Positions 7,907 to 40,604 of a stretch of DNA of 41,272 bases are shown here, piece by piece. The DNA is taken from NCBI GenBank assembly GCA_036504895.1, contig DASXUJ010000025.1:1-41272 (forward strand), written 5' to 3'. Below the pieces are notes generated by a model. That model saw only the letters and a list, made by a program, of their open reading frames with translations. It did not search any database and had not been told where the DNA came from. A program made the translations under genes and the position numbers. How positions within the stretch are numbered: position 1 is the stretch's first letter; each line of letters opens with the position of its first letter. The DNA is from Syntrophorhabdaceae bacterium (GTDB taxonomy: Bacteria > Desulfobacterota > Syntrophorhabdia > Syntrophorhabdales > Syntrophorhabdaceae).

Positions 7907-8248
7907 TTAATCGGGGTAGGCGGCTACTACTAGTATCACCATCATATTCTCTTTATCATTCTTGAGCCCGTGCGGCTCGCCTGCGGGGAGCCATATCGCG
8001 TCGCCTTCTTTTACTTCCCTTTCCTCGGCGCCCACTTTCATTATTCCGCCGCCGTTTAAGACGAAGTATATCTCCTCCACTTCATCCACGTGCTCGTCGA
8101 TCGCGTTGCCGGGAGGGAGCATGGCATAGGCGAGAAATTCCATTGATTTAAGGAACTGGCTGGTCATGATCATCCTGGCCATTGCGCCGCGGTGGGCTAC
8201 GTAGGTGGTGGCGAGCACTTCGGGGTCGGTCATGTTTCTTACGATCAT
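7907..8248 (-). CDS. Single-domain cupin protein
   Basis: The 113-residue protein contains both cupin motifs: HVDEVEEIYFVLNGGGIMKVG (metal His and Glu) and EGDAIWLPAGEPHGLKN (second His), giving one six-stranded barrel that probably binds a divalent metal. The start ATG at 8248 has TGAGG five bases upstream. Such small cupins act as sugar, phenolic or oxalate-type binding proteins or sensors; the ligand is unknown. It lies downstream of glnA on the same strand with 95 bases between. Confidence 0.85.
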   Translation of the reverse strand: MIVRNMTDPEVLATTYVAHRGAMARMIMTSQFLKSMEFLAYAMLPPGNAIDEHVDEVEEIYFVLNGGGIMKVGAEEREVKEGDAIWLPAGEPHGLKNDKENMMVILVVAAYPD

Positions 8249-9666: not shown

Positions 9667-9817
9667 GACGTGCCTCCTCTCGATTGCCCTCAATGGCGCT
9701 TGTCTCATCTATGCGCACCATCCCGAATAATGTCAATGGCTTGGGCTTCTTCCGGCCATATATACTAAAGGCCTCCGCCTCCCATAATCCCGACCCATCT
9801 TTCGACGCACTTCTTTC

Positions 9818-9846
9818 TTGACTTTCAGGCCCTATGTATGTATTAT
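9818..9846 (+). promoter_or_regulatory. Sigma-70 promoter of the rplU operon
   Basis: TTGACT (9818-9823) and TATTAT (9841-9846) are spaced by exactly 17 bases, each 5 of 6 to consensus. Transcription would start near 9853, giving an AT-rich leader of about 55 bases with two T runs before the rplU ribosome site (AAGGAG at 9897-9902). This is the only strong promoter seen ahead of the twelve-gene operon. Confidence 0.7.
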
Positions 9847-9908
9847 ATGTAGCTTTTTTTTGAAATGTGTTATATGTACTTTTTTTAAAATAAAGGAAGG
9901 AGTTCATT

Positions 9909-10241
9909 ATGATGTACGCCATTATCAAGAGTGGAGGCAAGCAGTACCGGATAGCGGAAGGCATGAAAATCAAACTCGAGAAATTCGCCATCGCGGAAGG
10001 AGAAGAGGTTGATATACGAGAAGTCCTCGCGGTAAATAACGGTGAGGAGACCCTTATCGGCAGCCCTTATGTTGAAGGCGCCTACGTTCACGGAAAGGTC
10101 CTCTCCCACGGCAAGGCCAGGAAGGTCACGACCTTCAAGTACAAAAGAAGGAAAGACTACAAGAAGAAAATCGGTCATCGCCAGCCGTATACCGAATTAT
10201 TCGTAGAAAAGATAGTGATGGAGGCAGCTCATGGCGCATAA
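9909..10241 (+). CDS. rplU: 50S ribosomal protein L21
   Basis: Opens [17 protein letters not shown] and contains [25 protein letters not shown], diagnostic for L21, which binds 23S rRNA in the large subunit. Length (109-110 residues) is normal. Two adjacent ATGs are possible starts (9909 and 9912); the second gives the usual MYAII start, and both fit the AAGGAG site. The gene overlaps rpmA by 11 bases. Confidence 0.97.
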
Positions 10242-10488
10242 GAAAGCAGGCGGAAGCTCAAGGAACGGAAGGGACTCGAGCGGTCAGAGACTCGGCGTAA
10301 AGATCCACGCGGGCCAAGCGATAAGGGCGGGAAGCATCATCGTAAGGCAGCACGGCACAAAAATACATCCGGGTAAGAACGTGGGCATGGGCAGAGACTT
10401 TACCCTTTTCGCACTGATCGACGGTGTGGTGAAATTCGACTCTTTCGGGGAAGACCGGAAGAGGGCGAATGTTTACCCTAATGAATGA
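10231..10488 (+). CDS. rpmA: 50S ribosomal protein L27
   Basis: The 85-residue protein opens [20 protein letters not shown] and has [19 protein letters not shown], the conserved L27 sequence whose N-terminal tail reaches the peptidyl-transferase centre. The tail starts MAHKKAGG directly, so there is no cleavable Firmicutes-type extension. GGAGG precedes the ATG inside the rplU end. Its last four bases are shared with the obg start (ATGA). Confidence 0.97.
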
Positions 10489-11480
10489 AATTTGTCGATG
10501 AAGCGCGTATTCACGTAGAGGCAGGCAACGGAGGCCGGGGGGCGTCGAGCTTCAGAAGAGAAAAGTTCGTCCCCAGAGGCGGCCCCGACGGAGGAGACGG
10601 CGGGAAAGGGGGAGATGTAGTCATCGCGGGCAAATCGAACCTTACGAGCCTCCTGGATTTCAGATACAAACGGATTTACCGAGCAGAACATGGCAAAAAC
10701 GGAAGCGGGAGAAATAAAAAGGGGCGGGACGGGAAGGATATTACCATCTCCGTACCTTTAGGCACCATCGTAGCGGATGATGCCGGCGTGACTCTTTGCG
10801 ACGTCACCAAAGACGGCGAGGTGTTTATCATCGCCCGTGGCGGCAGGGGAGGAAAGGGCAATGCCCATTTCGCCACCCCCACCAAGAGGGCGCCCTCGCA
10901 ATTTCAGTATGGCGAGGAGGGCGAGGCGAAAGACCTCAACCTGGTCCTCAAGCTTCTTGCCGATGTGGGTATCGCCGGTCTTCCCAATGCAGGAAAGTCG
11001 ACACTCATCGCAAAACTTACCGACGCGAAGCCAAAAACCGGAGATTATCCCTTCACCACCCTCACCCCGAACCTCGGCGTCTATCGAGAAGAGGACGAGG
11101 TAGTAGTGATCGCCGACATCCCGGGACTTGTGGGAGGGGCTTCACAGGGCAGGGGTTTAGGTATTACATTCCTGAAACATATCGAGAGGACGGGGATGCT
11201 GCTGCTCCTTCTCGATACCTCGTCGCCCGATCCACTGGGGGATTACGAGGTGCTCCTTCACGAGCTTTCAACTTACAAGGCCGCCATGGCGGATAAAAAA
11301 AGGATAGTAGTCCTTAATAAGATAGATCTCGTTCCGGCCCAGGACCTCGTGAAATGGGAAAAGGACCTTGCGGTCAGGGGAGAAGAAGTGATGAAGGTGA
11401 GCGCTCTCGAGGGAACGGGTATCGAGGCGCTGAAAACCGTCGTCAGAAAGAAAGGTGCACCGAGGAACGTGGATGGCTGA
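10485..11480 (+). CDS. obg: Obg/CgtA family GTPase
   Basis: GTPase that binds the 50S subunit late in assembly and links growth to nucleotide state. The Gly-rich Obg domain (about residues 1-158, with [12 protein letters not shown]) is followed by the G domain: GLPNAGKST (P-loop), [22 protein letters not shown] and SALEG. At 331 residues it ends after the G domain and has no OCT C-terminal extension, as in most proteobacterial members. Start by ATGA overlap with rpmA; its stop lies within the proB start. Confidence 0.96.
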
Positions 11481-26919: not shown

Positions 26920-27714
26920 TTATTTGCCTTTGGCCGCCTTGCCGATGAAATCGAGAAGACCTTCAGGGGTATAGCCCGTCATGCCGCCGTCCATGGTGAT
27001 GGTCTCGCCATTGATATATGCCGCCTCTTTCGTCGCCAGATAGAGTATGAGACCCACGTATTCTTCCACATCCATCATCCTGCCCATGGGTGTCCTGCCG
27101 GAAAGGTAGTTTACGAAGGCCTCTTTCCTGACGAGCCCCTCGTTCATCCCGCCCTTGATGAACCCGGGAGCCACGGTCACCGTGGTGACCCCGAATTTCG
27201 ACCATTCATAGGCAAGGGTCCTCGCCATGACCATAAGTCCCGACTTGCTCACCGCGTAGGGCAGAAAACCCTGCTCTCCGAAGAGGGCGACCTGGGACGC
27301 GATATTGATGATCCGTCCGTACTTCCCTTCGATCATCTTTTTGCCGAATATCTGGCACGCATAGAAGGCGCCTTTCAGGTTTATGTCGATCGATTTGTCG
27401 AATTCCTCTTTCTTCATCTTCGCCGCGGGTCCGAGAGCATTCACCACGCCGGCGTTATTGACGAGCACGTCGACCCTGCCCCACTTATCCATGGTCTTCG
27501 CCGCCACGTTTTCCATCGCGGCATAATCGGTTACGTCCGCATGGAAGGCGAGGACCGGTTTTCCCTTGAATTCCTCCTCGAAGCGGGCGACCGCCTCTTC
27601 GGGGATACCGCAGACTCCCACGGAGGCACCTTCTTTGAGAAATTCCTCCGCCATGGCCTTGCCCAGGCCGCGGGTCCCGCCCGTGATAAATACTACCTGC
27701 CCTTCAAACCTCAT
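26920..27714 (-). CDS. Short-chain dehydrogenase/reductase
   Basis: The 264-residue classical SDR has the TGGTRGLGKAMAEEF cofactor motif (TGxxxGxG), NNAGVV, the catalytic Ser in INIASQVALFGEQ and YAVSKSG (YxxxK). The residue pattern after beta-2 (GVCGIPEEAV) does not clearly indicate NAD or NADP. It looks like a FabG-type enzyme that oxidises or reduces a hydroxyl/keto group; the substrate is not known. It overlaps the SPL-like gene by four bases (ATGA). Confidence 0.92.
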   Translation of the reverse strand: MRFEGQVVFITGGTRGLGKAMAEEFLKEGASVGVCGIPEEAVARFEEEFKGKPVLAFHADVTDYAAMENVAAKTMDKWGRVDVLVNNAGVVNALGPAAKMKKEEFDKSIDINLKGAFYACQIFGKKMIEGKYGRIINIASQVALFGEQGFLPYAVSKSGLMVMARTLAYEWSKFGVTTVTVAPGFIKGGMNEGLVRKEAFVNYLSGRTPMGRMMDVEEYVGLILYLATKEAAYINGETITMDGGMTGYTPEGLLDFIGKAAKGK

Positions 27715-28658
27715 AACCCACCTCCGTAGAATTTCCTTATCCTGTCATCAAAAAGGTCGACCAGGTCCCCGCTCGTTGCGAGGTCCTTCCCCATCGCCTC
27801 CCGCCACACATCGGGCCGCTCCATGCAGAGGTAGACGAAGAGGTCGGGACTCCGGCTCTTCAGCATATCCTGGAGCATCTTATAGACCTTTACCCTCTCT
27901 TTCTTCAGGTAACGGTATTTCCCGTCTTCTCCCCGTATGAATTCACCGTAGAGGAGGTTTCGCCTTTCATGCTCGATAAAATGGTCCATGAGCCCCGGCG
28001 GGAACCTGAGAAGCCCGAGGCTTATCCATATGATCCTCTCCGGATCGAGGATCCTGCATATGTCCTCTGTCAGATACTCATAATCCTTCTCGAAACCGTC
28101 ATAAATGATCACGGGGTCGAGGTGGAGCCCTACGAAGGAGCCCATCTCCTGCGCCTTGCGGGCCGCTTTCAATCTCTTGTAAAGGGGACTCGTCCGCCGC
28201 TCTTCCCGATCGATCGACCTCTGGGGGGCGAGGGAGAAAGAGACCACGGTATAGGGATTGAGAAAAGGCGCAATAGGAGAGATATCCGCCCACTTCGATT
28301 TCAACTCGAGGAGGGCCCGCTTCTTTTCCCCGAAATATTCCATCAGGGGCCCGTTGAGCCTGAATCTCCGGTCGAGGGCCAGGCTGTCGGACAGTTCGCC
28401 CGTGCCGAACCTCAACACATGGTCCAACTCACCCTCTATCTCTTCCTCTATCTGGGAGAGGATGTAAGGGATATCACCGTGCACGCTTATGCCGGCGGTA
28501 TTCATATAATATTTGAGTATACAGTACGAGCAGGAGAGGACGCACCCCTCGATGAGGTCGATCGTCTTGTAGCCGCAGCAGACGTGGTTCTTCGTGCCGG
28601 GGCAGTCCCGGACTATTCTCCCTTTCGTCTCGACAAAATTAACCTCTTGTAAGTTCAA
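27711..28658 (-). CDS. Spore photoproduct lyase-like radical SAM protein
   Basis: The 315-residue protein has CCGYKTIDLIEGCVLSCSYC, with Cys39, Cys43 and Cys46 forming the CX3CX2C site of radical SAM enzymes, in the sequence context of the SPL family (CPGT...CCGY...DCSYCILQ-type). True SplB repairs the thymine spore photoproduct. This bacterium shows no sign of sporulation, so the target, DNA or otherwise, is open. It overlaps the ParB-like gene by 20 bases and the SDR gene by four. Confidence 0.82.
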   Translation of the reverse strand: MNLQEVNFVETKGRIVRDCPGTKNHVCCGYKTIDLIEGCVLSCSYCILKYYMNTAGISVHGDIPYILSQIEEEIEGELDHVLRFGTGELSDSLALDRRFRLNGPLMEYFGEKKRALLELKSKWADISPIAPFLNPYTVVSFSLAPQRSIDREERRTSPLYKRLKAARKAQEMGSFVGLHLDPVIIYDGFEKDYEYLTEDICRILDPERIIWISLGLLRFPPGLMDHFIEHERRNLLYGEFIRGEDGKYRYLKKERVKVYKMLQDMLKSRSPDLFVYLCMERPDVWREAMGKDLATSGDLVDLFDDRIRKFYGGGL

Positions 28659-29550
28659 GGATGCTCCCTATCGATCCATTGTCCAGGGTCCTGCGGAGTT
28701 TTTCCAGGGCCTTCTCTAAATCCTCAATATCCCTGGTTCTTATACCTATATCAATATACTCCTTTTCAAAAAAAGGGTCTACCCTTATATCAATGTTCGG
28801 GGGCAGCGCCATCCGGACCTTCACCTCTTCCAGTCTCGCTTCCATGGAGGTGAGCAAGGGATGGGTCCGTTGCTTCAGCTTCGCCCGTAAATCGCCGGCA
28901 TTCTCCGTGCCCCCGAGGGCAACGAAATCGATCCGCCCTTCTTTCACCTTCATAAGCGCGATCAGGCGCAGGAGGTCTCGCAGATACCCTTCAGTGACGT
29001 GCAGCGGCGAAAGGAGCGCGAGAAGCTCCTTTCTCTCCGCCTCATTGAATTTCAACAAATCTTCTATATTCCTGAGGGAAAGGCCATTCGTGTGGATAAA
29101 TGCCTTGAATGGGTCCCCGGCCCGTGCGAGGGCGAGAAAGGTGCTCAGGACCTTTTCATGGGGACTGCACCCGAGGACCTCCATGGTCCCGAAGGTCTCT
29201 TCCGATGAAAAGCCCGCCGCGGCCATCTTGTCCAGGGCGATCGCTTTTTCCACCACATTAAGGCCTCTCCCCGCGTTTGCATGGATCGCCCGGATAAGAG
29301 CTCCCTTTTCTTCAAGGCCGGACTCCACGAAAGCAGGCACTTCCGTAAGCCCGAGGCGCAAGGCTGCCTCCGCCCTTTTATGTCCCGATATGATGACAAA
29401 AGGGGAACCTTCGAGGAGAAGGAGGGGCTCCACAATCCCGACAAGGTCTATGGAAGGCAGAAGAGGCCCCGGCTCCATGGGATAGGAGATACAAAACCTC
29501 CGGTCATCCACATCGATGCGCTCAAGGGCTATAGTCGCGAGATAAGCCAT
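28639..29550 (-). CDS. ParB N-terminal-domain (ParB/Srx-like) protein
   Basis: The 303-residue protein has a ParB/sulfiredoxin-type N-terminal domain: VEPLLLLEGSPFVIISGHKRAEAALRLGLTEVPAFV (GxRRxxA box), followed by IHANAGRGLNVVEKAIALDKM, matching the ENxxRxxLxxxExA box of ParB. A helical middle with LSLRNIEDLLKFNEAERKELLALL follows, and a predicted amphipathic C-terminus. There is no parA nearby and it is not next to an origin, so it is not a chromosome partition ParB. It heads a four-gene minus-strand run. Confidence 0.8.
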   Translation of the reverse strand: MAYLATIALERIDVDDRRFCISYPMEPGPLLPSIDLVGIVEPLLLLEGSPFVIISGHKRAEAALRLGLTEVPAFVESGLEEKGALIRAIHANAGRGLNVVEKAIALDKMAAAGFSSEETFGTMEVLGCSPHEKVLSTFLALARAGDPFKAFIHTNGLSLRNIEDLLKFNEAERKELLALLSPLHVTEGYLRDLLRLIALMKVKEGRIDFVALGGTENAGDLRAKLKQRTHPLLTSMEARLEEVKVRMALPPNIDIRVDPFFEKEYIDIGIRTRDIEDLEKALEKLRRTLDNGSIGSILELTRG

Positions 29551-29721: not shown

Positions 29722-31917
29722 CTAGATGAGAGAATATCCCCCTTCCCTGAAAAGTATGAGGCAAACGCGCGTTGCTTCTGGATCGTAGAGGGTTCCCTTC
29801 ATGCCCTCTATCTCCGCGAGCGCTTTGGCGACATCGGCGCCGGGAGCGTAAGGGCGGGGGGCAACCATGGCCTCCACCGCGTCGGCGACCGCGAGAATGC
29901 GTGCCTCGAGGAGTATCTCGCTCCCCTTGAGGCCGAGGGGATATCCGGAGCCGTCGATGCGCTCGTGGTGCTGGAGGATGATCTCCGGGATCGGATAGGG
30001 GAGGCCCGTCTCCTTGATCAGCTCGTACCCCGACCGGGGATGGACTTTTACAAGGTTCTGCTCCATTTCGGTGAGGGGGCCCGGTTTCATCAGTATTTCG
30101 GCAGGCACCGATATCATGCCCACGTCATGGATGCGGGCCGCTTTTTCTATGTTATCCGCCATATCAGCTGAAAAGCCCATCTCTATGGCGATGGCCCTCG
30201 CGAGCCGGGAGACCCTTTCCTGGTGCCCTTTTATGCCCGGGTCCCGGGCTTCGGTGATCCGGGAGACCATGTCGACCATGCCGCCCAGGGTCGATTTAAG
30301 CTCTCTTAACTCTTCTTCTGCAAATTTCCGGGTGGTGATGTCCTCTACGGTGCCTTCGTAATAGACAAGCCTCCCGGTGTCGTCGCGGACGGCATGCGCC
30401 GTGTTGGAGACCCAGTGGAGGCTGCCGTCTTTTCGTCGCATCATGATCTCGAAGTTCCTGACCGAACCTTCCTCCTCGACGAGCTGCTTGAGCCTTGCCC
30501 TCCGGCTCGGGTCTACATAGAGCTGATGGGCGATGTCGGTGACGGACGCGATCATCTCCTCGGGAGAATCGAATCCGTGGATTCGCGCCAGTGCCGGATT
30601 TACGCTCAGGTAACCGCCCTCCGGCGTGACCTGGTAGATGCCCTCCACCGCGTTCTCGAATATGTTCCGGTATCGTTCCTCCGATCTCCTTAAACCCTCC
30701 TCCGCCTGTTTTCTCCTCGATATGTCCCGGGCAATGGAGAGGACCAGGGTGCGGTCCTTTTGGGTGAAGAGGCGGGAGCTGATCTCCACGGGAATCCGGT
30801 CCCCCTCCCTGGTTACATGGGTAGTCTCGAACCAGACCGATCCGGTTTCGATGAGACTCTCCATTATCCCGGGGAGGTCGACCGCCCCTTCACGGGCATC
30901 TATATCCCTCGGTCCCATGGAGAGCATCTCTTCCCTCGTATATCCCAGCCGCTCGCATCCGATCTCGTTTACCTCCACGAAGCGTCCCGGCATCCCGGAG
31001 GGGGTGATCTCGAAGAGGTATATGGCATCGACCGCGGTGTTAAAAAGGGTCTTGAATCTTGATTCGCTTTCCTTGAGGGCCTCTTCCGCCCCCTTTCGTG
31101 CGGTAATGTCTTCGAGGGTGCCCTCATAATAGAGGACCTCTCCCTTTGCCCGTGCCTTCACGGCTCGGACATTGAGAGAGCCCCACATGAGGCTCCCATC
31201 CTTCCTGTGGAACTGCGCTTCGAAGCCCCTTACCACCCCGGACGTCTCGAGAATCCTCTTAAAAGTACGCCGGTCTTCCGCGCGGGCATAGAGCTCGGAA
31301 CCGATGCTCGTGATCCCTTCCTTCATCTGCGTGGGTGTGACATATCCGAACATGCGGGCCATGGCCGGGTTGACCGTCATGAGCCTGCCCTCGGGGGTGC
31401 TCTGGAATACGCCTTCCACCGCATTTTCGAAGATGCCCCTGTATTTCTCTTCACTCTCCCGGAGCGCCTTTTCCGCATCCTTACGCTCCGTGATATCGGT
31501 AAACATGGCAAAGGAGCCCTGAAACCTGTCCTCTCCGTCAACAATGGGCGACGCGGAGGCGTGGGCCCACAGGACAGTCCCGTCCTTTCTTTTGAGCCTC
31601 CTCTCGTATCTGCCGGGAATGCCCTGGCGCCGCATGGCGGTCTTCTCCGCGAGGTCGGGGAAATCTTCTTCGAAGAGAAACTCGTCGTGCCTTCTTCCGA
31701 TCATCTCCTCCGGCTCGTAGAGGAGCATGGCGGCCATCCTCCTGTTCACGAAGGTGGTGAGGTAGGTTTCATCGAGGACCCATATCCCCTCTTCGGCGGT
31801 GTCTATAATGCGCCGGTATCGCTGCTCCGGATCGGACCTGCGGAGCTCGTCAAGACGCTGCCCCATTCTTCGGATCTCATCCAGAAGCTCTTCGTATGTC
31901 TTTTCTGCCTCTTTCAT
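29722..31917 (-). CDS. Four-PAS HD-GYP domain protein
   Basis: The 731-residue protein has a coiled-coil start, PAS domains at about 30-145, 155-275, 285-403 and 412-532 (each ending in a DITxRK-type linker), and an HD-GYP domain at 545-731. PAS 2 and 4 are closely similar, an internal duplication. The HD-GYP domain keeps His597-Asp598, HHERIDGSGYP (650-660) and later VADAVEAM, but the usual HDxGK lysine is Met601. HD-GYP proteins hydrolyse cyclic-di-GMP. No membrane helix is seen, so it is likely a cytosolic redox, gas or ligand sensor. It overlaps the activator gene by four bases. Confidence 0.9.
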   Translation of the reverse strand: MKEAEKTYEELLDEIRRMGQRLDELRRSDPEQRYRRIIDTAEEGIWVLDETYLTTFVNRRMAAMLLYEPEEMIGRRHDEFLFEEDFPDLAEKTAMRRQGIPGRYERRLKRKDGTVLWAHASASPIVDGEDRFQGSFAMFTDITERKDAEKALRESEEKYRGIFENAVEGVFQSTPEGRLMTVNPAMARMFGYVTPTQMKEGITSIGSELYARAEDRRTFKRILETSGVVRGFEAQFHRKDGSLMWGSLNVRAVKARAKGEVLYYEGTLEDITARKGAEEALKESESRFKTLFNTAVDAIYLFEITPSGMPGRFVEVNEIGCERLGYTREEMLSMGPRDIDAREGAVDLPGIMESLIETGSVWFETTHVTREGDRIPVEISSRLFTQKDRTLVLSIARDISRRKQAEEGLRRSEERYRNIFENAVEGIYQVTPEGGYLSVNPALARIHGFDSPEEMIASVTDIAHQLYVDPSRRARLKQLVEEEGSVRNFEIMMRRKDGSLHWVSNTAHAVRDDTGRLVYYEGTVEDITTRKFAEEELRELKSTLGGMVDMVSRITEARDPGIKGHQERVSRLARAIAIEMGFSADMADNIEKAARIHDVGMISVPAEILMKPGPLTEMEQNLVKVHPRSGYELIKETGLPYPIPEIILQHHERIDGSGYPLGLKGSEILLEARILAVADAVEAMVAPRPYAPGADVAKALAEIEGMKGTLYDPEATRVCLILFREGGYSLI

Positions 31918-33467
31918 GCGACTGTTCCCATTTTTGCGGCCCTGCCGAAGGGGATGCCCAGCTTTCGCATCCTGTGGCGAAGGGTTCCGGGGTTGATGCC
32001 CAGTATAGCCGCCGCCCCGCCGGCCCCTTCAACCCTCCCTTCCGCGGCCTCCAGGGCACGCCGAATGTGAAGGGCCTCGATGCCCGTGAGGGTCATGCCG
32101 GTCTCTTCCCTGGTCTTCTCCGCCTCCCTGTCATGGTCCCCCTGAAGGCCTACGATATCTTCGTAAGTGAGGGGCTTTCCTTCGTGGATGATGATAGCGC
32201 GCTCCACCGCGTTGGAAAGCTCTCTCACGTTGCCGGGCCAGTCGTATCCGATGAGCTTCTCCATGGTCCCCGGTGCAAGGCCGGGCACGAAATTGAAACC
32301 AACCTCCCGGGATTTCTTACGCATGAAAAATTCGACCAGGGCAGGAATATCCATCCGCCGCTCCCGGAGGGGCGGGATATGGATGGGAAAGACGGAGAGG
32401 CGATAATAGAGATCGTCCCTGAAGAGGTTCCGCGCCACGAGAGTGCGGAGGTCCTTATTGGTGGCCGAGATAATCCGTATATCGACCTTGACCGACTGGA
32501 CGCCGCCCACCCTCTCTATCTCCTTTTCCTGGAGTACCCTCAGGAGCCTTACCTGGGCATTGGGGGGAAGCTCGCTCACCTCATCAAGAAAGATCGTTCC
32601 CCCATGGGCCCTTTCGAATCTTCCCCGCTGCTGGGATGAGGCCCCCGTGAAGGCGCCTTTTTCGTGGCCGAAAAGCTCGCTGTCGATCAGGGAGTCGGGG
32701 ATGGCCCCGCAGTTTACCTTTATGAGGGGACCTGAGTGGCGGGGCGAGAAATTATGGATCGCATTGGCCATGAGCTCCTTGCCCGTCCCTGTCTCCCCGT
32801 AGAGCACCACCGGGCTCGGCTGGGGCGCGACTTTGAGGACCTGTTCCATGGCAGCTTTCAATCCGAATTCGGCGCCCACGATCTCCTCGCTGTAGCCGCG
32901 GCGAAGCTCGTTCTGAAAATACCTGCTGTCATCGGCCAGCAGTTCTTTCAGCTTCATGAGCTCCTGGTAACGGCGGCTGTTGGCCAGGGCTACTGCCGCG
33001 GGCTCGTTGATGAGGGACCATAGTCCCCCGTGCTCCTGTCCATAGCGACCCCTCCCTTCCACGCGGCCGATAAAGGAACCGACGAACTTGCCCTCGATGA
33101 TAAGTCTCCCCACGATGATCGAGGAATCGGGCCAGCGGTAGTGGCGGGCGACGGGTTTCAGTATCTCGTCCTCGTATACGTCGCCGCATACTCTTACGCG
33201 GGGAAATTTCACCGGATCTTCGAGCTGACCCCGCAGGGGCATGGCCATGGTGATCCGGTCGGCCCGGGCAACACCCCCCTTTTCATCGGCAGTCGCCACC
33301 ACTTCAAGTACTCCGGCGAGGGGGTCGTAGACGGTGAAGATCAGCTCGTCGGCGGGGATGATCTCCCTGATGTAGAGGAAACAGCGCCAGAGGGCCTTCT
33401 CGATTTCGAGACTCCCGCAGATGCGCAGAGTAATCTCCCGGAAGAACCGGTTTTCATCTATTTTCAT
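31914..33467 (-). CDS. Sigma-54-dependent transcriptional activator (GAF-AAA-Fis)
   Basis: The 517-residue protein has a GAF-like sensor (about residues 1-165), an AAA+ domain with Walker A GETGTGK (224-230), the sigma-54 contact loop GAFTGA (271-276) and Walker B TIFLDE (291-296), and a Fis-type helix-turn-helix near the C-terminus (GGAAAILGINPGTLRHRMRKLG). All parts needed for ATP-driven opening of sigma-54 promoters are present. Translation of the HD-GYP gene starts in its stop (ATGA). A sigma-54-type promoter lies about 1.1 kb upstream. Confidence 0.94.
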   Translation of the reverse strand: MKIDENRFFREITLRICGSLEIEKALWRCFLYIREIIPADELIFTVYDPLAGVLEVVATADEKGGVARADRITMAMPLRGQLEDPVKFPRVRVCGDVYEDEILKPVARHYRWPDSSIIVGRLIIEGKFVGSFIGRVEGRGRYGQEHGGLWSLINEPAAVALANSRRYQELMKLKELLADDSRYFQNELRRGYSEEIVGAEFGLKAAMEQVLKVAPQPSPVVLYGETGTGKELMANAIHNFSPRHSGPLIKVNCGAIPDSLIDSELFGHEKGAFTGASSQQRGRFERAHGGTIFLDEVSELPPNAQVRLLRVLQEKEIERVGGVQSVKVDIRIISATNKDLRTLVARNLFRDDLYYRLSVFPIHIPPLRERRMDIPALVEFFMRKKSREVGFNFVPGLAPGTMEKLIGYDWPGNVRELSNAVERAIIIHEGKPLTYEDIVGLQGDHDREAEKTREETGMTLTGIEALHIRRALEAAEGRVEGAGGAAAILGINPGTLRHRMRKLGIPFGRAAKMGTVA

Positions 33468-33489
33468 AGATTCTTCTCGTATTCAATTA

Positions 33490-33509
33490 AACTGTCGTAT
33501 ACAACAGTT
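33490..33509. promoter_or_regulatory. Inverted repeat in front of the sigma-54 activator gene
   Basis: AACTGT (33490-33495) and ACAGTT (33504-33509) are perfect inverted repeats around CGTATACA, 23 bases before the activator start. GTATACAA occurs again at 33532-33539, and TATACC/GGTATA form another inverted pair. The spacing and position suit an operator, perhaps for autoregulation; no binding protein can be named. Confidence 0.4.
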
Positions 33510-33790
33510 ATACCTGATTTCCAAAAAAAGGTATACAAATTTAGGAAAAATATTCTGTCGCTGAGGGAGACGGAGGTTGCCTGCCCGGTCCTTTGGACAA
33601 TTATTGGGCGAATGCTCGCTTGATAAGGCAAGAGGCCATCAGGAATGGTTGCGACTCTTCGTTCCAATTGGAAAGACTTGGAGGCCTCGGTGGAACAACT
33701 GTCGATAGATGGGGAACTCCTTCTAATCAGGGAGATTAATTTCATGAAAACAGAGGGTGGTAATTAATGTGTAATTTAATGGTGCGGGGA

Positions 33791-33983
33791 GGACCGGTTG
33801 TCAGATTGAGCGGGAGTAGGAGGAGCAACGGGAATGGAACCGGTCCCTGTGAGAAAGAGTAAGAACTTGGAATCTTTGTGGAGAAACCCCGACAAAAGTC
33901 AAGCGTGTCCGGGAAGCATGTGCAGCCAAGGAGGTCACGCGGTCTCGGACACGCATCGATCTTTTTACCCCGGGGAGGGGTTT
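33791..33983. other. Structured intergenic block with nested inverted repeats
   Basis: Within the 647-base gap 33468-34114, two structures follow one another. GGACCGGTT (33791-33799) pairs with AACCGGTCC (33838-33846). Then AAACCCC (33884-33890) pairs with GGGGTTT (33977-33983), enclosing GCGTGTCCG (33903-33911) paired with CGGACACGC (33946-33954), which is followed by ATCGATCTTTTT. Nothing else in the gap reads as coding. It may be an RNA element or the remains of a mobile element; no family recognised. Confidence 0.5.
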
Positions 33984-34114
33984 ACTGATACACAGGCGGA
34001 TTGAAGCCCGGGCAAGCTCCATCCCGCTTTATTACACCACTTCTGATCTCAAATGAACCTTTTACACGAAGCAGCATTTGAAATCGCCGGGAAGGGCACC
34101 GGAGACAACTCTTT

Positions 34115-34429
34115 TTAGTGATACCTTACCTTCAGACCCCGCTCCATGGGAAGGGCGGCCTCCCGGCTTATTCGCGCGGCCCGGTCGAGCCTTCTCTCCC
34201 TGCCGGTGTCCAACCGGACGACCCTGTCGAGAGAGACGCATCCGAACACTTCTATAAGGGTCTCATCCATTTCACCGTGGGGCAAGGCAAAATCGGCCGT
34301 GCTCATTATTCTGCCTTTTCCTGTTTTCACGTTTCCAAGAGAGACGCATCCGAACACCTCTATAAGCGCCTCATCCATTATACCGGCCCTAGACCCGCCT
34401 TCGGACTCAAACCCCCGTTCTCGTGCCAT
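34115..34429 (-). CDS. Putative small protein with two copies of a Cys-containing 14-residue repeat
   Basis: From ATG 34429, with GGGAGGG just before it, the frame encodes 104 residues. MDEALIEVFGCVSL and MDETLIEVFGCVSL occur 36 residues apart; the DNA copies share the 20-base run GTGTTCGGATGCGTCTCTCT but differ at a synonymous Glu codon, which speaks for selection on the peptide. The remainder is charged and basic (REAALPMERGLKVRYH at the end), without signal or membrane segment. It lies downstream of a sigma-54-type promoter. I recognise no family. It could be a regulator, a peptide precursor or a non-expressed frame. Confidence 0.45.
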   Translation of the reverse strand: MARERGFESEGGSRAGIMDEALIEVFGCVSLGNVKTGKGRIMSTADFALPHGEMDETLIEVFGCVSLDRVVRLDTGRERRLDRAARISREAALPMERGLKVRYH

Positions 34430-34572
34430 AATGCCCTCCCGTCCCAGGCCTTTATCCGGGTACGTCAAGGCCCTTGTATGACCCTGACCGGTAAGCCTGG
34501 TATGACGACTATCGCGATCGGCCCTGTCCCTGTGTAGCCGGCCGATTTGTTTCGAAGTGATACTCCGTAAGT

Positions 34573-34588
34573 AGCAATGTGCATGCCA
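34573..34588 (-). promoter_or_regulatory. Sigma-54 (-24/-12) promoter upstream of the repeat-peptide gene
   Basis: On the minus strand the sequence TGGCATGCACATTGCT matches TGGCACG-N4-TTGCW at all but one defined position, with the exact -24/-12 spacing. Transcription would begin near 34561 and run left, about 130 bases before the small gene's ATG at 34429. Confidence 0.6.
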
Positions 34589-34637
34589 TGGTCAAAGCGT
34601 AATATTATTAAAGCGTTAATCGAGGTGATAATTGTCA

Positions 34638-34655
34638 GCTATCGTCGGCGATAGC
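34638..34655. promoter_or_regulatory. Palindrome upstream of the sigma-54 promoter, candidate activator site
   Basis: GCTATCG (34638-34644) and CGATAGC (34649-34655) form a perfect palindrome about 85 bases upstream of the predicted start site, the usual place for a sigma-54 enhancer. A related direct repeat, CGACTATC, occurs at 34659-34666 and again at 34506-34513. The nearby sigma-54 activator is the obvious candidate to bind. The rest of 34430-34755 shows no gene. Confidence 0.45.
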
Positions 34656-34755
34656 CATCGACTATCATATGCAACAGAAATTCACATAACTGCCAGATGA
34701 GTCAGTTGTGAGGAAAGGGTAAGGCAGGAATGGACGAAGAAAGTGCCCGGGAGAA

Positions 34756-35568
34756 TCAGAGGTATTCTCTTCTCAACTGTTCTATCATCTCGCCGGTCAG
34801 CTTCTCCGCTTTTCTCAACTCGGCGAATTTTGCGAGGAGGTCGTCGACGGTAAGCCGCTCCTTCTCCTTTCCCGGGATATCGTCGATGATCCGGCCCTGA
34901 TGCATCATCACCGTGCGGCTCCCCATCTCCAGGGCCTGCTGCATGCTGTGGGTCACCATCAGGGTGGTGAGGTTCCCCCGCTCGATAAAGGTCTTGGTGA
35001 GTTTTATGATCTGGGCCGCAGACCTGGGATCGAGGGCGGCAGTATGCTCGTCGAGAAGGAGGACCTCCGGTTCCCGTATCACGGTCATAAGGAGGCTTAT
35101 GGCCTGGCGCTGTCCCCCGGAAAGGGTGCCGATCACCGTGCCGAGGCGCGTCTCGAGCTGCATCTCAAGCTCCGCGACCCTCTGCCTGAAGAAATCGATC
35201 CGCTCTTTGGTGAGACCCCTCCCGAGAAAGCGTTTCCTGCCCCTCAGGTAGGCGAGGAGGAGGTTTTCCGCAATGGTCATGTCCGGCGCGGTCCCCATGA
35301 AGGGGTTCTGGAACACCCTGGCTACTGAGCGTGCCCGCTCGAAGTCCCGCTTCTTCGTCACATCCTTCTCGTCGATGACGACCCTGCCCGAGTCGGGAAG
35401 TACCGTACCCGCCACCACGTTGAGGAGGGTCGACTTTCCGGAGCCATTGGTGCCTATGAGGGTGACGAACTCGCCTTTCTTTATGAGAAGGCTCACGTCC
35501 CGGAGCACACAGACTTCGTTTACCGTGTGGGGATTGAATGTCTTATTGATGCTGCTGAGCTCGATCAT
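34756..35568 (-). CDS. ABC transporter ATP-binding protein (TrpZ/LivF-like)
   Basis: The 270-residue ATPase has Walker A GTNGSGKS, the Q-loop VFQNPFMG, the ABC signature LSGGQRQ, Walker B VLLLDEHTAALD (Glu and His in place of the more usual EP) and the H-loop VTHS. It starts three bases after the stop of the permease-SBD fusion gene, with which it forms the transporter. The arrangement is like the TrpXYZ-type importer family that uses PF04392 binding proteins; the substrate is not determined. Confidence 0.93.
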   Translation of the reverse strand: MIELSSINKTFNPHTVNEVCVLRDVSLLIKKGEFVTLIGTNGSGKSTLLNVVAGTVLPDSGRVVIDEKDVTKKRDFERARSVARVFQNPFMGTAPDMTIAENLLLAYLRGRKRFLGRGLTKERIDFFRQRVAELEMQLETRLGTVIGTLSGGQRQAISLLMTVIREPEVLLLDEHTAALDPRSAAQIIKLTKTFIERGNLTTLMVTHSMQQALEMGSRTVMMHQGRIIDDIPGKEKERLTVDDLLAKFAELRKAEKLTGEMIEQLRREYL

Positions 35569-35571
35569 CTC

Positions 35572-38391
35572 CTACCTCTTCACGATCGCTGCCTTTGAGA
35601 GCAGGCTGTCGGGGATCTTTACCCCGTAGAGGGCGGCCAGTTTCAGATTTACCCCTATTTTTTCAGGGACATAATCCTTGATCGGGATCTCTTTCGTCGT
35701 CTCGCCCCGGATCACGCGTTCGGCAACTCTCGCGGTCTCGACCCCAACCTCATGGTAATCGGCGCCGATGGAAAGGAACGCGTCGTGCTCCACGTCGGTG
35801 GGATCGTTGGTAAAGTAAGGGATCTTCCGGCCGTTCAGAATTTCGGCGATCGTTCTCGAGGCGAGTATCACGGAATTGTCTCCGGAGGTAAGGAAGAGGT
35901 CGATCCCCCTGTTGAGAAGGGCCGACAGTGCGTCCTTCACCTCATCCGTAGACGTCACCGTCCGCTCCACAAGTTCGAAATCATATTTTTTCGCCCATTC
36001 CCGCGCCTTGAGGGTACATGCCTCGGAGCTTGCCTCGGAAGGGTTCCACACGATCCCTATCCGTTTTGCCTTGGGAAACACGGTCCGCATCGTTTTTATG
36101 GTCGCCTCCACGGGCTGGAAGGTCGCGATGCCGGTGAGGTTGGGGATGTGGTCGGACGGACTTTTGGCCACTCCAAGCCTGTAGGGATCGGTGACCGTGC
36201 CGAAGACATGGGGTATGGTCTTGTTGCCGTTGGCCGTGACCTGTAACGCGAGAGAAGAGACGGTGATGATATAATCGAAGCCCTGGCGCACCATGTCCTG
36301 CACGATGGCCTGGGCAGTGCCGTAATCGTTGTGCGAGTTCTTCAGGGTTACTGTAATCCCGTATTTATCGAGGGTCCCGCTTTTCGTCAGCTCGTCCATA
36401 ATGCCCTTCGTGCTCTCCACGAGGAGGTAATTGTCCGAAAACTGGAAAATGCAGAGCCTCCTGGCGCTTCGCCCGGGCACCGCGGCGCGATAGACCGCTG
36501 CCGCTTCTGCGACAAGGTCGGAGGGGAAGGTGATGCCGAGCTTTTTCGCCGCGGCGTCATTCAGTTTCAGGGTGAGCTTGCGATACTTTTCAAAGGGTAT
36601 ATGGGCGGGTTTTTCGCCCTTGATGATCCGATCCACAAGATGGGCGGCCTGGGTGCCGCTCAAAGCGTAGTCGTACCCGTAGGCAGCCAGTGCACCGGCC
36701 TGGAGACGCTCTATGTCGCCCGTGAAAACGGGGATCTTCTTCGCGTCCGCTGCCTTTATCACGGAGTCGAAGGCGGAGTAGACAATATTATCCGGGCTCA
36801 GGACGAAGGCGTCGATCCCCTTGTGGGTGAGCGACGTCGCCGCCTGGTAGACTTCCGATGAACCTGCGACGGTGGCGCCCACAAAGGTGACGTCCCGGTT
36901 TTGCGTAACGGCCTGTTTCAGGTTATTGACGTTATAGACCGAATTTTCCTGGGAGGGGTCCCAGATCGCCCCTACTTTTATCTTTCCGGGCAGGATCCTT
37001 GTCGCGAGGCCGAGGAGCTTATCCTCCGGCACGGAACCGTAGACGCCGGTCACATTCGGGAGGTGGTCCGTGTCCGTCTTGCCCGCCCCTATGATAAAAG
37101 GGTTTGCCACCGTGGCAAAGACAATGGGGCGGTCCTTGATCTTGTTCACGGCTGCCTGGGTGCATCCCGTGGAGATGGGGACCACGATGTCCACGCGGTT
37201 ATGGAGAAATTTATCCATGATCGAATTGACGGTGGTCATCTCCCCGTTTGCATTTTCGAGATCGATGACGACGTTTTTGCCGTTCTCGTATCCGAGCTTC
37301 TTCATCTCTTCCACGAAGCTGACTCTCGTGATGTTCAGGAGGTCGTGGTCGACGAGCTGCACCACGCCGATCCGTATCGCCTTCGAGGAGAGGACGGTCC
37401 GGTTGCCGAAAATTCTATAGGCGGCGAAGGAGCCCGCGCCGAGACAGACTACCAGGATGAGGCTCACCCATGCCTTGCGATGGTGTCCGGTCTTTATCGC
37501 TGATGCCGCGCGGCCCATTTTCTTCACGTCCCATCGGTGAACGACTTGGGGCGACACGAGGATTACAAGGACGAACAGGGCGGTGATGAGCTTGAGGTCG
37601 ATAGGGTCGAGACCCACGTAAAGGGCCAGGGCCACCATGAGACGAAAGGCGATGGAGCCGATGATGACGGAGAGCACTTTCGCGTAGATCGACCTCGTCC
37701 GTATGACCGATTCCCCGATGATCACCGCTGCGAGACCGAAGACGATGGAGCCGATGCCCATGCCGATGTCGGCGAAGCCCTGGTATTGGGCCACGAGGCT
37801 TCCCGATATGCCTACAAAACCGTTCGCAAGCGCGATGCCCACCATCTTCATGGCGTTGACATTCACCCCTGATGCGCCGGCCATGGCGGGATTGTTTCCT
37901 ACTGCCCTCATGGTGATGCCGAAATCGGTCTTGAAAAAATAGGAGACCACAAGCCAGAAGAGGAGGGCGACCACAAAAAAGACCATGGCGAGTAGCAGTT
38001 CATGGGGCATCCCGGGATTCAGGTTGCGCAGCATCGTGATCACGCCGGGTTGGGAGAGGAGGGGGATATTCGACCTTCCCATGATGTGGAGATTTACGGA
38101 ATAAAGGCCGGTCATGACGAGGATGCCCGCGAGAAGTCCGTTGATGCTGAACCGGGTATGGATGAAGGCGGTGATGACGCCTGCCAGGGCCCCTGCGAGA
38201 AAAGAGAGGGTGAGGGCCAGGAAGGGGTTTACCCCCGCCACGATCAGTACGGCGGTTACCGCCGCCCCGGTGACGAAACTCCCGTCTACCGTAATGTCGG
38301 GAAAGTCATGGATGCGAAAGGTGATAAACACACCCATGGCCAGGAAGGCATACAGGAAACCGAGGTTTATCGCGCCCATCCAGAGGTCCAC
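35572..38391 (-). CDS. ABC permease fused to two tandem substrate-binding domains
   Basis: The 939-residue protein begins with GTG behind GAGGG. Residues 1-285 are a LivH/RbsC-type permease with about eight hydrophobic helices (GNNPAMAGASGVNVNAMKMVGIALANG is the typical permease core). A further helix (VSLILVVCLGAGSFAAYRIFG, 309-329) leads out, then two domains of the ABC_sub_bind family (PF04392) follow, about 338-630 (IGVVQLVDHDLLNITRVSF, FATVANPFIIGA) and 645-935 (FGTVTDPYRLGVAKS, FTNDPTDVEHDAFLSIGADY). The two are divergent copies. Both would lie outside the inner membrane. Substrate unknown. Confidence 0.9.
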   Translation of the reverse strand: MDLWMGAINLGFLYAFLAMGVFITFRIHDFPDITVDGSFVTGAAVTAVLIVAGVNPFLALTLSFLAGALAGVITAFIHTRFSINGLLAGILVMTGLYSVNLHIMGRSNIPLLSQPGVITMLRNLNPGMPHELLLAMVFFVVALLFWLVVSYFFKTDFGITMRAVGNNPAMAGASGVNVNAMKMVGIALANGFVGISGSLVAQYQGFADIGMGIGSIVFGLAAVIIGESVIRTRSIYAKVLSVIIGSIAFRLMVALALYVGLDPIDLKLITALFVLVILVSPQVVHRWDVKKMGRAASAIKTGHHRKAWVSLILVVCLGAGSFAAYRIFGNRTVLSSKAIRIGVVQLVDHDLLNITRVSFVEEMKKLGYENGKNVVIDLENANGEMTTVNSIMDKFLHNRVDIVVPISTGCTQAAVNKIKDRPIVFATVANPFIIGAGKTDTDHLPNVTGVYGSVPEDKLLGLATRILPGKIKVGAIWDPSQENSVYNVNNLKQAVTQNRDVTFVGATVAGSSEVYQAATSLTHKGIDAFVLSPDNIVYSAFDSVIKAADAKKIPVFTGDIERLQAGALAAYGYDYALSGTQAAHLVDRIIKGEKPAHIPFEKYRKLTLKLNDAAAKKLGITFPSDLVAEAAAVYRAAVPGRSARRLCIFQFSDNYLLVESTKGIMDELTKSGTLDKYGITVTLKNSHNDYGTAQAIVQDMVRQGFDYIITVSSLALQVTANGNKTIPHVFGTVTDPYRLGVAKSPSDHIPNLTGIATFQPVEATIKTMRTVFPKAKRIGIVWNPSEASSEACTLKAREWAKKYDFELVERTVTSTDEVKDALSALLNRGIDLFLTSGDNSVILASRTIAEILNGRKIPYFTNDPTDVEHDAFLSIGADYHEVGVETARVAERVIRGETTKEIPIKDYVPEKIGVNLKLAALYGVKIPDSLLSKAAIVKR

Positions 38392-39620: not shown

Positions 39621-39818
39621 GCCCTTAGTGTATCACAAAATCGGCGGAGGCTCCTCATTTATGTTCTTTTGCAATAAATGTCTGTTGACAATTGAGTTGC
39701 CCGAAGTATTCTATAAAAATTGTCGGTGCCACCGGGTGCTCACGCCGGATGATGCCCGAAAAAGGACCGATTTAATGGGGGGATGGTCACTGAATCTCAA
39801 GAAAATCAGGAGTCTCTT

Positions 39819-40604
39819 ATGGGTGTCGTGAAAAGCCTCGTTGTTCTGACTTTCATCTTTCTCTTCGCCGGGGCATCTTCTGCTGATGACCGGGAGCTGG
39901 AAACGCTCTTTGGGAATCGGGGAGTGGAGGGGGCCATTGTCATTTCATCCCTCGATGGAAAGAAAGAGTACGTCTGGAACGAGGACCGGGCCCGGAAGAG
40001 ATTCGTGCCGGCATCGACGTTTAAAATCCCTCACACCTTGATTGCCCTCGATCAGGGGGCGGTCAGCGATGAGAAGGCGGTAATACCATGGGACGGGAAG
40101 AAGCAGGAGGTGAGGGGCTGCAACAACGATCAGAGGCTGGAGACGGCGTTCCCCCTCTCCTGCGTATGGTTTTATCAGGAGCTGGCAAAGCGCATGGACA
40201 GAGCGAAATACACAGAGCTTCTCGGAAAAACAGGTTACGGCAATGGCCTTGCCGGGCCTGATCTGACCACCTTCTGGCTCGCGGGCGATCTGTCGATATC
40301 TCCTTACGAACAGGTCCTGTTCCTTCGGAATCTTTATCACGGGTCGCTCCCTTACAAGAAGGAACATATGGAAGTGGTGAAAAAGCTCATGGTAAACGAG
40401 GTGAATCCCCTTTTTACGGTCCGCGCAAAGACCGGCTGGGCGGCAAGAACCTTGCCCGAACAGGGTTGGTTTGTGGGATACGTGGAGACGGGAGGGCAGG
40501 TCTGGCTCTTTGCAACCCACATCGATATAAAGAAAGCCGCCGACCTCGCGCTACGCAAGCAAATCACCCTCGATGCGCTAAAATTGAAGGGGATAATAAA
40601 GTAA
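39819..40604 (+). CDS. Class D (OXA-type) beta-lactamase
   Basis: The start ATG at 39819 follows AGGAG and gives a Sec signal (MGVVKSLVVLTFIFLFAGASSA) and a 261-residue precursor, the normal class D length. All active-site motifs are present: Ser66-Thr-Phe-Lys69, Ser114-Cys-Val116, Tyr140-Gly-Asn142, Trp in FWLAGDLSIS, and Lys204-Thr-Gly206. It should hydrolyse penicillin-type drugs in the periplasm; the spectrum cannot be read from sequence. No integron, transposon or plasmid feature is near, so it looks like a resident chromosomal gene. A lipoprotein gene follows after 78 bases. Confidence 0.93.
   Translation: MGVVKSLVVLTFIFLFAGASSADDRELETLFGNRGVEGAIVISSLDGKKEYVWNEDRARKRFVPASTFKIPHTLIALDQGAVSDEKAVIPWDGKKQEVRGCNNDQRLETAFPLSCVWFYQELAKRMDRAKYTELLGKTGYGNGLAGPDLTTFWLAGDLSISPYEQVLFLRNLYHGSLPYKKEHMEVVKKLMVNEVNPLFTVRAKTGWAARTLPEQGWFVGYVETGGQVWLFATHIDIKKAADLALRKQITLDALKLKGIIK

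Follow-up and report, generated by a model that had tools for sequence, protein, structure and literature searches.

Sigma-54 activators of the NtrC/NifA type combine an AAA+ domain carrying the GAFTGA motif with a Fis-type HTH, and paired palindromic sites lie upstream of the -24/-12 promoters which they serve; the site of NifA is TGT-N10-ACA. The window analysed here, which is the whole stretch of 41,272 nucleotides, contains a locus that resembles these systems in all of these features, and the site form found in its family, CTGT-N8-ACAG, is similar to the NifA site. It differs from them in that the N-terminal 180 residues of the window's activator have no family assignment, and in that the only clear predicted target of this activator in the genome is one small gene. 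On the enzyme side the closest described systems are the ATP-dependent benzoyl-CoA reductase BzdNOPQ and the 2-hydroxyacyl-CoA dehydratases HgdABC and HadBCI, which belong to the HGD-D/BadF-type enzyme class and rely on Fe-S chemistry. In most relatives of the window a similar operon, with two HGD-D proteins and two BadF/BcrA-type ATPases, is found beside the small gene. Unlike in the described systems, its proteins score far below the curated cut-offs of the reductase-specific models (bzdN/O/Q) and the operon was therefore not filed as a benzoyl-CoA reductase; it also lies outside the window itself.

We propose that the locus is a sigma-54 switch devoted to a single small protein. Upon a signal the next-door activator, bound to a tandem CTG-N10-CAG array about 65-120 bases upstream, would open the -24/-12 promoter, and the output would be a protein of about 11 kDa made of two similar Cys-containing units. 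This protein would most likely be an intracellular accessory or regulatory factor for a 2-hydroxyacyl-CoA-dehydratase/benzoyl-CoA-reductase-type system. Taken as a whole, a dedicated sigma-54 switch making such a protein for an HGD-D/BadF system seems to us somewhat better than an even bet. The initial annotation had already suggested that the activator drives the promoter and that the small protein is the output, and this is supported by joint conservation, by the activator clade and by a site matrix built from relatives only. The features concerned are the following:

29722-31917, minus strand: PAS/HD-GYP protein (HD_5 domain match; motifs by eye)
31914-33467, minus strand: sigma-54 activator, AAA+ with GAFTGA and C-terminal Fis-type HTH (domain match and motif)
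33492-33507, no strand assigned: predicted activator-type site CTGTCGTATACAACAG, about 25 bases upstream of the activator start codon (best matrix score in the window)
34115-34429, minus strand: small-protein gene, 104 residues, ATG start (homology, dN/dS, ribosome site)
about 34310-34378 and about 34199-34270, minus strand: the two MDE[AT]LIEVFGCVSL units of the small protein
34573-34588, minus strand: -24/-12 sigma-54-type promoter TGGCATGCACATTGCT (pattern match, conserved in relatives)
34638-34655, no strand assigned: palindrome GCTATCG-N4-CGATAGC (16-mer at 34639-34654), in the promoter-proximal slot at -66
34662-34677, minus strand: predicted activator-type site CTGTTGCATATGATAG, slot -89 (relatives -90 to -92; second-best matrix score in the window)
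34690-34705, minus strand: third, weaker predicted activator-type site CTGACTCATCTGGCAG, slot -117 (relatives -118 to -121; site matrix)

The 104-residue frame, its ribosome site (GGGAGG) and the two near-identical units, with the sequences MDEALIEVFGCVSL and MDETLIEVFGCVSL, had been recognised from the letters alone and are all present; the DNA repeat beneath the units extends over 48 bases and is 90% identical. By profile search, the bacterial family of the window has homologues in 27 of its 39 species; none of the seven further genomes of the class contains the protein, nor does any genome outside the family among 395 sampled across the phylum. A homology search of 60 relatives likewise found homologues in most genomes of the same family, nearly all with open frames. 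The homologues have about 95-120 residues, and each has two E-x-x-[LI]-[IV]-E-x-[FY]-G-C units except in one species, where a single-unit version (L122, G005, 7946-8149) has a tail with two additional Cys. An invariant or almost invariant Cys marks each unit; Glu and Gly-Cys are invariant, and the conservation extends to the residues between and after the units. Judged by codon substitution, as the initial annotation had advised, the gene is under purifying selection: pairwise dN/dS for close pairs is 0.03-0.21, with a single exception of 0.43, and the other reading frames of the window's copy contain 9 and 5 stops. The DNA of unit 1 and unit 2 is identical at 37-38 of 42 positions in the window and the sister genome G002 and at 20-33 of 42 elsewhere, a pattern suggesting that an old duplication has been homogenised locally. 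In one genome (G017, locus L111) the whole gene is duplicated in tandem (9675-9992 and 10345-10662).

A chance open frame is ruled out by the conservation and dN/dS, and a mobile or CRISPR-like element by the absence of a second copy of the repeat from the genome. The unit was also considered as a targeting tag on other proteins, and its profile is significant only for these small genes. Searches of Pfam, NCBIfam, PHROGs and solved structures yielded no match to the small protein apart from sporadic weak hits of single members; isolated E-values of 0.0004-0.01 (e.g., Phage_NinH) were treated as noise, since other members do not repeat them. Two AlphaFold2 runs gave no confident fold (mean pLDDT 44 and 46). 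A literature search with the motif string returned unrelated papers only, and no paper on a comparable small protein under sigma-54 control came up. By the tests run the small protein is a new family, and from its distribution and conservation the gene is a real, hitherto unnamed protein family confined to one bacterial family.

The 16-base -24/-12 match reported ahead of this gene is in place and correctly spaced. It has GG and GC ten bases apart within TGGCAY-R-N4-TTGCW, and TGGCATGCACATTGCT is the sole match in the window with zero mismatches. In the whole genome the near-identical pattern TGGCAYRNNNNTTGCW occurs 21 times, compared with 5 occurrences of a reversed-pattern control. A single match of this kind is on its own only suggestive, and conservation decides: a near-perfect -24/-12 match precedes the small gene in all 26 copies read (that of the window and 25 of relatives), at a distance of 43-159 bases. 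In the tandem duplicate of G017 each copy of the small gene has its own sigma-54 promoter and site array.

Sequence-predicted activator sites lie upstream of the promoter, as is typical for sigma-54 dependence. The window has tandem CTG-N10-CAG sites spaced by 28 and 23 bases, with slots at -117, -89 and -66. In the relatives the usual arrangement is a pair of CTG-N10-[CT]AG sites separated by 23 bases, one at -90 to -92 and the other at -67 to -69, and many loci have a third at -118 to -121. The perfect 7-bp palindrome noticed earlier, whose centre and the expected start site are about 85 bases apart, fits into this array as one of three tandem activator-type sites. It scores only 3.5 with the site matrix of the relatives and its centre differs, but it lies 23 bases from the next site, in the slot equivalent to that of the relatives, and its arms are CTATCG/CGATAG compared with CTGTCG/CGATAG in the family. 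From position and arms we read it as a probably diverged copy of the promoter-proximal site. When the matrix, which was trained on relatives only with the window left out, was scanned over the whole 41-kb window, the site at 33492-33507 ranked first and that at 34662-34677 second. The first of these stands just upstream of the activator gene and is possibly an autoregulation site. Seven loci share the pentamer pair CTGTT-N6-AACAG and seven share CTGAC-N6-GTCAG, compared with at most 3 in shuffles, which ignore the relatedness of the loci; the upstream sites of genus g5 are mostly of the CTGAC/GTCAG type.

The product of 31914-33467 has the Sigma54_activat domain, the GAFTGA motif and the C-terminal HTH of an NtrC-type activator, and that of 29722-31917 has an HD domain with HD and HHE..DG.GYP motifs, read by eye in the translation, as in HD-GYP proteins. 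The order of these neighbours, sigma-54 activator and then HD-GYP protein, was thus described correctly, but the activator does not directly follow the small gene, since about 650 bases without a recognised gene separate the two. Within this gap an inverted repeat, GCGTGTCCGGGA / TCTCGGACACGC, is located at 33903-33954.

In 16 genomes, belonging to six genera, the small gene has a close relative of the activator (70-77% identity) as its neighbour, and protein, promoter and activator are kept together in these genomes, as a check put forward with the initial annotation had asked; a seventeenth genome with a close relative (G023) has the activator at a contig end with its neighbour outside the contig. 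Usually the activator and the small gene are transcribed divergently; the window has them in tandem, and each keeps its own site. The activators beside the small gene form one clade with 100/98 support, and outside one genus members of this clade always adjoin the small gene. Since many of the species are closely related, the locus counts are not independent events. The genomes compared show gene, promoter, predicted sites and activator conserved as one unit. In g5 (11 species with the small gene) the activator clade is absent and the loci read contain no sigma-54 activator, so another activator must serve there. The activator search of contigs gave only distant activators (best 44-55%), and the small protein is absent beside them.

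Among the 21 sigma-54-type promoters of the window's genome, strong sites occur only at that of the small gene. One other promoter has a weak site, TTATCATATATGATAG at -88 (L194, G000:C15, site 5659, minus strand); it is the perfect sigma-54 promoter of an acyl-CoA dehydrogenase gene, which is divergent from a paralogous activator. Because only this one has even a weak site, the activator looks dedicated to the small gene. We strongly infer from these comparisons that the neighbouring activator would act at the small-gene promoter.

The link of the small gene to a reductase/dehydratase-type operon is new and lay beyond the sight of the initial annotation. An HGD-D gene comes next after the small gene in 23 of 27 species, and where the contig is long enough the set consists of two HGD-D proteins and two BadF-type ATPases, the composition of a benzoyl-CoA reductase or HGD-D operon. 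The closest solved relatives of its proteins are BzdN and BzdO of the ATP-dependent benzoyl-CoA reductase. A close HGD-D homologue is present in all 27 species with the small protein (G061 being counted by reading its locus) compared with 6 of the 12 species of the family without it (Fisher p 0.0003, uncorrected for relatedness). The enzyme operon of genera g5 and g9 is preceded, in the gap, by a conserved TTGACA-N17/18-TARAAT (sigma-70-type) promoter of its own, which is rarely matched in shuffles; small gene and enzyme genes are therefore not simply one operon. A similar TTGACA/TARAAT-type promoter stands before the HGD-D genes in G000 and G002, where these do not adjoin the small gene, and both the window's genus and genus g4 carry the enzyme genes elsewhere and without a sigma-54 promoter. 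Together with a clear terminator after the small gene in one relative (L107), the separate enzyme promoters indicate that the sigma-54 product is probably mainly the small protein and not the enzyme, although read-through into the enzyme genes may occur. From this gene context we infer, weakly, that the small protein may act on the reductase/dehydratase system. In four loci (L104, L105, L106 and L108) the gap between the small gene and the HGD-D gene also contains a conserved hairpin with the loop GTTCGTGGCGC; a GCCAC downstream of it could pair with the loop, and L104-L106 have no Rfam match.

The main rival explanation has the small protein feeding back on its own activator, as anti-activator or co-activator and possibly with the HD-GYP protein involved, and the enzyme operon as a mere neighbour. 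In genera g1 and g4 the small gene is indeed kept together with the activator rather than the enzyme genes, the strong site shortly before the activator gene suggests that the loop is closed, and an HD-GYP gene adjoins the activator in 14 of the loci read. We nevertheless consider it rather unlikely, as 11 species of g5 keep the protein beside the enzyme operon while the activator clade is not nearby. A role as a redox or metal protein for the oxygen-sensitive reductase system, in which two Cys (four in a dimer) would bind Fe-S or metal or form a thiol switch, would make sense of the invariant or nearly invariant Cys and of the Fe-S chemistry of the adjacent enzyme class; it is unlikely in view of the single-unit species, in which two Cys units are evidently not obligatory, and no cluster-binding motif was recognised in the small protein.

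It had also been suggested that the peptide is a small regulator, which it may be, or that it is processed at the Cys repeats, a proposal which found no backing because the neighbourhood has no conserved gene for a protease, for export or for modification. This neighbourhood likewise speaks against a modified or cleaved RiPP-like precursor with the repeated Cys units as cores, and so do the conservation between and after the units and the lack of precursor-family matches above noise; the short length, the repeated units, the invariant Glu and Gly-Cys and the lack of a confident AlphaFold2 fold would agree with such a peptide, which we regard as very improbable. That the conserved unit is an RNA element (sRNA or leader) and not a protein is hardly credible with low dN/dS, ribosome sites before the ATG and frequent stops in the other frames. 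The repeat of the window can be drawn by eye as a short stem (GAGRCNC/GCGTCTC) and the gap after the gene folds well in some relatives, but Rfam gave nothing in the window and only rRNA in the loci of seven relatives.

If the dedicated switch is the right explanation, a whole activator-promoter circuit is kept across several genera for one unnamed protein of about 100 residues, which is unusual. If in addition the small protein acts on the neighbouring ATP-dependent system, it would provide a level of control for anaerobic CoA-ester reduction; to our knowledge no described system has such a level. Going further, the twin-Cys protein might be the founding member of a new class, small accessory proteins induced through sigma-54 that serve ATP-driven CoA-ester reductases or dehydratases of the HGD-D/BadF type; they would tune or protect an enzyme expressed from its own promoter and would be made on demand by a dedicated activator. 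This extension is tentative, and we think it a real but minor prospect. A dedicated activator with tandem sites and a single small target lends itself to a clear genetic test.

Other genes of the window were noted in passing. A gene at 35572-38391 (minus strand) encodes a 939-residue protein in which an ABC permease domain is fused to two TrpX-like substrate-binding domains, and its ATPase gene (34756-35568) adjoins it. At 27711-29550 (minus strand) a ParB-like gene (28639-29550) overlaps a gene whose product looks, by eye, like a radical-SAM spore-photoproduct-lyase-type protein, and a frame at 39783-40604 (plus strand) resembles, by eye (STFK, KTG), a class D beta-lactamase.
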